From assembly GCA_022843445.1 (NCBI GenBank), contig JALHNS010000016.1, forward strand, positions 1 to 38,904: a stretch of DNA of 38,904 bases, written 5' to 3'. This stretch comes from Gemmata sp. (GTDB lineage Bacteria; Planctomycetota; Planctomycetia; Gemmatales; Gemmataceae). Positions 20,769-37,225 of this stretch are shown here, in pieces (the stretch's first letter is position 1; the number at the start of each line of letters is the position of its first letter). Below the pieces are notes generated by a model. The model ran no database searches and was not told the origin of the DNA. It worked only from the letters and a program-made list of their open reading frames with translations. The translations under genes were made by a program, and so were the position numbers.

Positions 20769-20773
20769 GCGTT

Positions 20774-20859
20774 CAACGAACGAGCCGGAAGCGTGAGCGA
20801 CGGTCTTCATTCTTCAGGTGAAGAGAAGACAGTCGCTCACGCTTCCGGCTCGTTCGTTG
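20774..20859. terminator. Perfect 28-bp inverted repeat between convergent genes
   Basis: Arms 20774-20801 and 20832-20859 are exactly complementary. The interior is also largely palindromic (GTCTTC at 20803 with GAAGAC at 20825; TCTTCA with TGAAGA at the tip), so nearly the whole 86 bases can form one hairpin. It separates the methyltransferase and the small basic gene, whose transcripts converge. A bidirectional terminator is the likely effect. The arm sequence may be a dispersed Gemmata repeat. Confidence 0.75.
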
Positions 20860-20869
20860 GGCGCGCCGT

Positions 20870-27033: not shown

Positions 27034-27107
27034 GTTCCGAGTTCCGAGTTCCAGAGTTCCAAGTCGAAGACAGTGCAAAACTTGGAACTTGGAACTTGGA
27101 ACTTGGG
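27034..27107. repeat. Seven-base-period palindrome, GTT left / AAC right
   Basis: Immediately after the stop at 27031-27033, GTT recurs at 27034, 27041, 27048 and 27056. After a spacer, AAC recurs at 27079, 27086, 27093 and 27100. The right arm is a tandem ACTTGGA repeat. The inner stem GTTCCAAGT at 27056 pairs with ACTTGGAAC at 27080. The same architecture with different filler bases is found at 36119-36189. Confidence 0.85.
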
Positions 27108-34935: not shown

Positions 34936-35012
34936 CTTCTGTAGCCGGGGTCTGTGAGGCCGGTGCTACCTTCACAAGCCAGCACCGGCCTCACAGAGGC
35001 CGGCTACAGAAG
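34936..35012. repeat. 32-bp imperfect inverted repeat (REP-like)
   Basis: Arms 34936-34967 and 34981-35012 match at 30 of 32 positions around a 13-base loop. It begins 6 bases after the stop of the preceding pseudopilin gene. It lacks a directly following T-run. Likely a dispersed palindromic element that also forms a hairpin in the transcript. Confidence 0.8.
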
Positions 35013-35174: not shown

Positions 35175-36113
35175 ATGATGCGTTCCGCGCACCGCCGCCG
35201 ACCGGGAACCTCGCTGATGGAGGTGCTCGTCGGGTTCGGCATTTTGGGCATCGGGGTGGCGAGCGTGATCTCGCTGTACCCGTTCGCGGCGCTGGCCGCG
35301 GGCAACGCGCTCATCCGGGACCGCACCACCACCAGCGCGCTGATCGCCGACGGCCAACTGCGCGAGATCCACAAGCGGATGGTGGTGGAAGTGGGCGAAG
35401 CGAGCAACGAGCCGTACTACCCGTCGCTGGACCGGGGGGCCGGCGGCGCGCCGGTGCCGCGCGACAGCGGCGAACCGAGCTACCCGGTGTTCATCGACCC
35501 GATGGGGTTCGCCGCGGGCCTGACCGGGCCGGTGGGCGGCACCACGGGTATTCCGCGGGTGAACCTGAGCGTCGTGACCAACTCCGGCGACCCGGTGCGG
35601 CACGCGCTGCGGTTCTGCAGCCAGCTCGACGGCCTCGGCTACAACGACGACGGCGCGGTGCAGGCCGGCCCGGAGATGCGCGAGCTGCGCTACAACTGGC
35701 TGTGGGTGGTGCAGCGCCCGGTGAACCGCGACCGGTTCAACCTGCGCGCGCAAGTTGTGGTGTTCAACCAGCGCATCCACCAGTACCGCCCGTCGATGAC
35801 CGAAACGGTGTACCCGGGGACGCTCACGGTCGGTCAGACGATCCTCACCGGCATCCCCCTCGCCGCGGAAGTGCGCAAGGGCTCGTGGCTCATGGACGCG
35901 GGCCGGACCGCCGGCGCAACCGCGCCGTTCCCGCTGCGGCACGCGGAGTTCTACCGCGTGGTGAGCATCGCCGACGACGGGCGCATCGAACTGCACCGCC
36001 CGGTGCAGTCGCCGCACGGCAACGTCGGCACCTACACGGCCAACATCGTGGTGATGCCCGGCATCATAGACGTGTACGAGCGGCCCCAACTGAGCGCCGG
36101 GTTCGGCCCCTGA
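35175..36113 (+). CDS. PilV/GspI-like minor pseudopilin 4
   Basis: A 312-residue protein starting MMRSAHRRRP (ATG at 35175; 35178 is equally possible) with GAGGG before it. The prepilin site is G11|TSLMEVLVGFGILGIGVASV with Glu16 (+5). The SLMEVLV pattern is usual for PilV/GspI proteins. The soluble part of about 275 residues is long, with an apparent IDPMGFAAGLTGPVGG stretch, and is not otherwise recognised. It sits between two palindromic elements and may have its own promoter. The stop is followed at once by a heptad palindrome. Confidence 0.88.
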   Translation: MMRSAHRRRPGTSLMEVLVGFGILGIGVASVISLYPFAALAAGNALIRDRTTTSALIADGQLREIHKRMVVEVGEASNEPYYPSLDRGAGGAPVPRDSGEPSYPVFIDPMGFAAGLTGPVGGTTGIPRVNLSVVTNSGDPVRHALRFCSQLDGLGYNDDGAVQAGPEMRELRYNWLWVVQRPVNRDRFNLRAQVVVFNQRIHQYRPSMTETVYPGTLTVGQTILTGIPLAAEVRKGSWLMDAGRTAGATAPFPLRHAEFYRVVSIADDGRIELHRPVQSPHGNVGTYTANIVVMPGIIDVYERPQLSAGFGP

Positions 36114-36118
36114 TTGGT

Positions 36119-36189
36119 GTTCCGGGTTATTGGTTCTTCGTTGTTAAGCGTCGCCAACAACCGGTAACAACCAACAAATAACAACTAAC
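36119..36189. repeat. Seven-base-period palindrome, second copy of the type
   Basis: GTT recurs exactly every seven bases at 36119, 36126, 36133 and 36140. AAC recurs exactly every seven bases at 36159, 36166, 36173, 36180 and 36187. The four bases between are variable, so the arms pair only in part. The element fills the gap between the stop at 36113 and the ATG at 36197 and is much richer in A and T than its surroundings. Confidence 0.85.
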
Positions 36190-36196
36190 GACTCCC

Positions 36197-37225
36197 ATGA
36201 TTCTCACCGCAAATGCACGAGCGCGGCGCGGGTTCACGCTGGTGGAACTCATGGTGGCCGCGTCCATGTGCGTTCTGGGCATGTGGCTGTTCACGTGGCT
36301 GTACAAGCAGGGCTTGGACAGCTTCCGCACGGCGAAGGCCCAAGCCGACCTGATGTCGCAAGAGCGCTCGGTGATCGAGCTGCTGCGCCGCGACCTGAGT
36401 GCCGACCACTTCTTGGACGAGGACCGCAAACCGAACCACGGGCGCAGGCTGAGCGACCAACTGCGCACCCTCGGCCCCGGCTACGCACTGCCGCGCGGCG
36501 GGTACTTCCAAGCCAACGGCACCGGGCCGACGAACACCGAGGCGACCGACGCCGACGGGTTCGTGTCGTGGCGCGCGAACCACGCGCTGCGGTTCACGGT
36601 GGTGCTGCCCGGCGGCACGCCGGACAAGCAGTTCAGCGTGCAAACGCCGGCGGCCGGCGGGCAGCAGTACGGCGGCGTGGGGGCCGAGGTCGCGTACTTC
36701 CTCGTCGTGGCCGGCCGCACCCCCGGCGGCGTGCAACTGTACGACCTGTACCGCCGGCAGCGGCTCGTGGCGCTCAACGACGACTACGCGCAAGCGTACA
36801 GCGGGTTCCTCAACCGGCCCGGCCCGGTGCTGAACATGCCCGACGTGGGTGAAGTGTTCGCGCTCCGCTCCACCGCGGGCCCGGCCCAAGTCGCCACGTT
36901 CGCCGACCTCCGCGCGAACCCGGCGCTGCGGGTGCCGTTTACACCCGTGACCGCCGCCGGGCGCGTGGGCGACGACAAGATCCTCTCGAACGTGGTGTCG
37001 TTCGAGACGAAGTACACCGGCACCCGCGGCCCGACGTACACCGGGCGCGCGTTCCCGGACTTGTTCACCACGACGAACTCCGATTACCCCTACGATTGGC
37101 TCCCCGCGAACTTTGACACCGGCAACAACCCGCAACTGCGGCTGACCGGCGTGCAGGTGCGGTTGCGCGTGTGGAACCCGAAGACGCTGCACGCCCGGCA
37201 AACGTCCGTCGTCGTCGACCTGTGA
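36197..37225 (+). CDS. PilW/GspJ-like minor pseudopilin 5
   Basis: A 342-residue protein with cleavage site G12|FTLVELMVA, Glu17 (+5) and a hydrophobic helix to about 36. The pattern after the helix, LMSQERSVIELLRRDLSADHF, is typical of GspJ/PilW proteins (QxRxALxxLxRDLR). A C-terminal stretch with NVVSFETKYT and RLTGVQVRLRVWNPKT-type strands also fits (V-x-V-x-v at the end of PilW/GspJ proteins). No Shine-Dalgarno is seen: the bases before the ATG belong to the heptad palindrome. Confidence 0.88.
   Translation: MILTANARARRGFTLVELMVAASMCVLGMWLFTWLYKQGLDSFRTAKAQADLMSQERSVIELLRRDLSADHFLDEDRKPNHGRRLSDQLRTLGPGYALPRGGYFQANGTGPTNTEATDADGFVSWRANHALRFTVVLPGGTPDKQFSVQTPAAGGQQYGGVGAEVAYFLVVAGRTPGGVQLYDLYRRQRLVALNDDYAQAYSGFLNRPGPVLNMPDVGEVFALRSTAGPAQVATFADLRANPALRVPFTPVTAAGRVGDDKILSNVVSFETKYTGTRGPTYTGRAFPDLFTTTNSDYPYDWLPANFDTGNNPQLRLTGVQVRLRVWNPKTLHARQTSVVVDL

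Follow-up and report, generated by a model that had tools for sequence, protein, structure and literature searches.

The heptad array at positions 36119-36189 is probably a copy of a dispersed family of inverted heptad repeats, which was gained in this lineage and now forms an A/C-rich leader without Shine-Dalgarno (SD) motif for the downstream pseudopilin gene. It lies in a window of 38,904 nt, i.e. the whole stretch of Gemmata sp. DNA that was analyzed (contig JALHNS010000016.1, forward strand). The array belongs to this family, is placed at the gene edges with the strand polarity of the other copies, lacks an SD motif and is absent from the congeners. From these features we infer its origin and its effect on translation.

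Structure of the array and its neighbouring genes

The features of the locus, together with the first heptad element of the window, are the following:

35175..36113, plus strand: upstream pseudopilin-like gene, N-terminus GTSLMEVLVGFGILGIG, preceded by the purine-rich GAGGGCGACACCG
36114..36196: entire gap between the two genes, occupied by the element, 83 nt, 46% GC (45.8%)
36119..36142, plus strand: G/T-type arm with four GTT-N4 units, immediately following the upstream stop
36143..36158, plus strand: centre between the arms, GTTAAGCGTCGCCAAC
36159..36189, plus strand: A/C-type arm, five AAC-N4 units, without SD-like motif
36197..37225, plus strand: downstream pseudopilin-like gene, N_methyl
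27034..27106: first heptad element in the window (GTTCCGA.../...TTGGAAC), located immediately downstream of a stop codon; its inverted arms are near-perfect

The GTT triplets (36119, 36126, 36133, 36140) and the AAC triplets (36159, 36166, 36173, 36180, 36187) were in exact 7-nt register. The last base of the upstream stop codon TGA is 36113, and the downstream gene starts with the ATG at 36197; the array begins 6 nt past the stop, and its A/C-type arm stops 7 nt short of the ATG. These coordinates confirm the preliminary description, which had reported nine triplets in register filling the whole gap from 6 bases after one stop to just before the next ATG. When the whole gap was shuffled with preserved dinucleotides, at least four GTT arose in 3/20,000 cases, at least five AAC in 0/20,000 and both runs in 0/20,000. 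With each half shuffled alone the numbers were 15/20,000 and 3/20,000, respectively, and a run of five of any triplet at periods 5 to 12 was seen in none of 3,000 gap shuffles.

The gap had also been described as far lower in GC content than its surroundings and as leaving the downstream gene without an SD motif of its own. Both statements hold: the GC content was 45.8% compared to 67% in the genome sample, and none of the motifs GGAG, GAGG and AGGA was found at -20 to -4 of the downstream ATG. The term palindrome fits the locus in part. The inverted triplets do match, but pairing between the arms is weak: they aligned at a score of 8.5 (6.9 for unrelated partners), mainly the triplets matched and the tetramers were mostly unpaired. 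No conserved loop sequence was recognised in the centre GTTAAGCGTCGCCAAC, and an Rfam scan of the whole window gave no match.

That both neighbours are pseudopilin genes, as proposed before, is supported to different degrees. The N_methyl match of the downstream protein was just over the curated cut-off. The assignment of the upstream protein (start 35175) is based on a weak GspI-like match (E=0.0037) and a visible prepilin-like N-terminus. Both proteins share a cluster with T2SSE and T2SSF proteins. A scan of genome contigs for close pseudopilin relatives resulted in a sole match of 31 residues on a Streptomyces contig, which was taken as spurious. The upstream pseudopilin gene is itself preceded by a gap that contains a REP-like inverted repeat (CTTCTGTAGCCGG...CCGGCTACAGAAG, window positions 34936-35012), so the pilus cluster carries a second, unrelated kind of intercistronic palindrome.

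The heptad family in the genome

The pattern GTT(N4GTT)3 had 64 matches in the 7.39 Mb genome to which the window belongs, compared to 11 for the reversed control, and heptad elements of similar kind sit between dozens of unrelated gene pairs. Many tetramer subtypes were found (CCAA, TGGT, ATCA, AGTG, AGCT, ATTG and others) and only the triplet was fixed. The centres differed between copies as well, which mainly had the arm sequence in common.

Further statistics were obtained from 837 kb of fetched contigs and from targeted loci. Within the 837 kb, 16 lag-7 self-similar regions were intergenic and one was coding, whereas those of lags 6, 9, 12 and 15 were mainly coding, making seven the clearest intergenic-specific period. 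The 712 kb that had been called as coding contained no in-register run of three GTT or AAC at period 7; one targeted locus outside this sample may hold an array within a reading frame.

Two arms were present in 31 of the 61 array-bearing gaps from the unbiased sample and the targeted loci combined. The median distance from an arm to the nearest gene end was 4 nt, and 70% of the arms were within 10 nt, compared to 35% if arms were placed at random within these gaps; start distances carry the error of gene calls made by a codon-usage script that had no trained model of starts. Read on the sense strand of the closest gene, 37 A/C-type and 3 G/T-type arms preceded starts, and 30 G/T-type and 8 A/C-type arms followed stops, many of these counts coming from loci that had been picked by the GTT pattern and hence for holding arrays. 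At least two of the 8 A/C-type arms after stops belonged to arrays spanning a whole short gap. The polarity at starts and stops held in single-arm copies, too. Arms of the same gap were complementary, with a mean score of 12.1 compared to 6.9 against arms from other gaps.

Palindromes of other kinds were observed as well. A long near-perfect one (CAACGAACGAGCCGGAAGCGTGAGCGAC..., window positions 20773-20860) fills a gap called as convergent, and others (GGCACGCGTGAGCGTGCC, CGCAGATTTCGCAGATGAACGCAGATT, GGCACAGGCTTTCGAGCCTGTG and more) fill many gaps of the same genome. Among 40 listed gaps (L051-L090) the strongest of them lay between co-directional or convergent genes and none was in a divergent gap.

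The gene pair in congeners

The downstream protein was found in 17 of 18 other genomes of the genus, the longer matches having 39-53% identity. The gap could be read in 15 congeners, in which a long same-strand frame ended 50-150 nt upstream. A heptad array of at least three units was present in the orthologous gap of none of these 15. The locus of a further congener (G003) had no array either, but it stands outside the 15 as its upstream gene was not confirmed; G006 was left out of the count because its match stops short of the N-terminus. Most congener gaps carried a purine-rich, GAGG-type motif before the ATG (GAGGGCGACCG, GAGGTGAGCG, GAGGACGACCG or similar), and a motif of this kind also precedes the upstream pseudopilin gene of the window (GAGGGCGACACCG). 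In one congener (G014, L043) the gap before the orthologous pseudopilin gene held a different, GC-rich palindrome (GCGAGCCGGGAGCGTGAGCGACCGGAG...).

Since the array is absent from the congeners, which mostly keep the motif, the most plausible reading is that this lineage gained it and lost an SD-like motif in exchange, in a comparison with relatives that are distant at this gene (39-53% identity). A control function within the pilus transcript had been suggested for the element. The comparison speaks in part against it, as the gene pair is intact in the 15 congeners without any trace of the array. With dozens of like repeats in unrelated gaps of the own genome in addition, the array is not a pilus-specific switch.

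Turnover between sister species

The sister species G009 and G007 are ~94% identical, and 12 array loci could be aligned as orthologues. The identity was 96.7% in the arms, 88.4% at third codon positions and 94.0% in other intergenic DNA. The elevated value of the arms was rejected as a sign of conservation, since the loci had been chosen by pattern. Array positions not fixed by the search pattern were 94.5% identical and thus no more conserved than other intergenic DNA (94.0%), which gives no sign of specific selection.

Five arrays of G009 without match in the G007 set were traced by DNA search; one was retained and four were replaced. The retained array adjoins tRNA-like sequences and its units were altered between the two species (L170 and L181). 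No start codon follows directly after the heptad element at this locus. In the four other cases the flanking coding sequence aligned up to or near the gene ends and the content of the gap was unrelated:

L151, L153, L164, L149 (G009) and L172, L175, L178, L184 (G007): gene pairs common to both species with unrelated gap fillers

The break points coincided with the stop and start codons or lay close to them, and two of the four gaps held another palindrome in G007. In a collinear stretch of 200 kb, 87 orthologous gaps were compared; 73 had an identity of 75% or more, and 8 had been replaced or contained insertions.

One could consider the gaps between genes as exchangeable cassettes, in which palindromes made of short tandem units (heptads, 9-mers, REP-like stems) take the place of earlier sequence and the exchange starts and ends at the stop and start codons or beside them. 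If this were true, a given gene pair would enclose unrelated gap fillers in sister species. We regard this view as rather doubtful.

The array as a proposed leader and its alternatives

An SD-like motif was present at 8 of 43 array-bearing starts compared to 192 of 463 other starts (p=0.003), a depletion which is partly due to the array itself occupying the SD position. The leaders of array-bearing starts consisted of 36% A, 35% C, 16% G and 13% T. In a 45-nt local fold, the 20 nt upstream of the start had a predicted unpairedness of 0.65 at array starts and 0.52 at the others.

Based on these data the following course of events is proposed. Full copies of the family are inverted pairs, in which a G/T-rich GTT-N4 arm extends from one gene end and an A/C-rich AAC-N4 arm reaches to the next. 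The copy at 36119-36189 would have arrived in this lineage and supplanted an older gap together with its SD-like motif, either through replacement of the gap or through insertion followed by repeat slippage and decay. In the polycistronic mRNA the A/C-rich arm would then be the 5' leader of the downstream pseudopilin gene, where it may serve as a weakly structured, SD-less site of ribosome entry or re-initiation. A G-poor leader at which ribosomes start without SD motif appears to be the most economical functional reading. The predicted effect on translation is possible and consistent with the array-bearing starts as a group. Such a leader would mean that translation is tolerated rather than specifically regulated. 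It is not a general explanation of the family, because some arrays adjoin divergent or convergent genes or tRNA-like sequences.

The main rival of the leader reading is a purely neutral or selfish repeat, which grows by slippage and template switching, persists outside of coding sequence and has no effect on expression. We consider this possible, though not the probable case. It agrees with array positions evolving like other intergenic DNA, with the turnover between the sister species, where 4 of 5 unmatched gaps had unrelated content, and with the abundance of other gap-filling palindromes in the genome. However, neither the consistent strand polarity at starts and stops, single-arm copies included, nor the SD depletion at array starts is obviously expected from such a repeat. 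Alternatively, the G/U arm after the stop and the A/C arm before the start may form an intercistronic hairpin with a role in the coupling or tuning of translation or in determining how the mRNA is cleaved or how stable it is. As a group, co-directional array gaps had a better predicted fold than the remaining ones (median z -3.9 vs -1.4, p=0.0005) and the arms within one gap are complementary. The predicted RNA fold of the present locus, in contrast, was no better than that of shuffles (z -0.99; -1.24 in the group comparison, among the weakest of the array gaps), its tetramers are mostly unpaired, arrays are found next to divergent gene starts as well, and at some genes there is a single arm. 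A hairpin is accordingly unlikely, and the control of mRNA cleavage, which had been considered for the element, is not favoured here as the stem is no better than chance.

An origin as a miniature inverted-repeat element of MITE or REP-like type, mobilized by a transposase, would be in line with another genome of the genus (G002), where many copies exist of a homogeneous ~120-bp element whose arms are heptads and whose centre is conserved. In the genome of the window the centres are not conserved between copies, a shared centre being restricted to the G002 family, and in the four sister-species gaps the content was replaced; we judge such an origin improbable. Least of all do we expect a transcription terminator, be it inside the operon or at its end. 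The inverted repeat does lie directly after a stop codon, but there is no T run, the stem is weak and a pseudopilin gene follows on the same strand. Neither a sigma-70 promoter nor a terminator was found, terminator-like sites having been sought in 35900-36400, and a Rho-independent terminator was rejected in the absence of a stable G+C-rich stem with T run.

Comparison with known repeats

Two groups of known repeats come closest, namely the heptameric ones described for Beggiatoaceae and cyanobacteria (PMC4679880) and those that form inverted heptameric pairs in Xanthomonas (PMC4692102). Tandem 7-nt units outside of coding sequence, many dispersed copies and start-facing orientation or inverted pairs were all found here as in heptameric repeats; instead of one conserved heptamer, only the triplet is fixed.

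Direct repeats of the heptamer TAACTGA occur in Beggiatoaceae, cyanobacteria and some Bacteroidetes (MacGregor 2015, PMC4679880). Common features are the heptad period, the intergenic location, an A/C-type strand facing the start codon within a few nt, the usual lack of a canonical ribosome binding site and the lack of a functional class of genes. The subtypes GTTATCA and GTTGTCA of our family correspond to this heptamer exactly or almost exactly when read in another phase and on the other strand. The TAACTGA system consists of one fixed heptamer with almost no inverted pairs (PMC4679880), whereas here a fixed triplet is combined with a variable tetramer in several subtypes per genome, often in gap-filling inverted pairs with the G/T arm after the stop. 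By analogy, a G-poor leader would agree with the start-facing repeats of the Beggiatoaceae, which lack a ribosome binding site (PMC4679880).

For Xanthomonas and Nostoc the heptameric repeats GGGAATC and GGGGA(T/C)T, respectively, have been described (Rehm et al. 2015, PMC4692102). They share with the present family intergenic heptads, many inverted pairs, degenerate unit positions and a location nearer to the 5' neighbouring ORF. Their units are G-rich and capable of forming G-quadruplexes (PMC4692102), in contrast to the unit found here, which has no G-tracts; 83% of the sites were common to both species studied (PMC4692102). Paired tandem heptamer and octamer 'global regulator' sites of Geobacter metallireducens (PMC2700814) resemble the family in short tandem units, opposite-strand pairs and variable spacing. 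The consensus differs (MTYCTGA heptamers, GTTGCTYN octamers), and stop/start polarity is not described in the passages considered (PMC2700814).

REP/BIME extragenic palindromes of the GTAG/CGTC families were reported in Planctomycetes, too (PMC3733652), and are dispersed extragenic palindromes as well. REPs are stem-loops of 20-40 bp with a tag tetranucleotide (PMC3733652). The element described here consists of heptad arms, and with 46% GC, a weak stem and no tag seen, its identity with REP/BIME was rejected.

New in the present family are the fixed triplet with variable tetramer, the placement at gap edges with strand polarity and the turnover of whole gaps. Heptad repeats are known from several phyla, and there is no agreement on how they arose or what they do. 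A genome of the type analyzed here, with its subtypes, register triplet, polarity at gene ends and recent turnover, offers a natural data set for this question, and such data could separate SD-less translation leaders, decay products of inserted elements and replacement tracts from each other.

Heptad arrays elsewhere in the phylum

Counts of the pattern were patchy among 294 genomes of the phylum. In many of them the reversed control equalled the pattern, so the counts there reflect heptad arrays generally and not this triplet. Two other planctomycete families had abundant arrays, but small samples from them (G183 and G076) showed neither the edge placement nor the polarity, and we rejected edge placement as a phylum-wide rule.

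The MITE-like family of G002 (L111-L130) is located in larger gaps. Its copies have the ends CAGTMGTTTCAAG in addition to the conserved centre and the heptad GTT arms. The existence of this element indicates that more than one kind of heptad-armed repeat is present in the genus.
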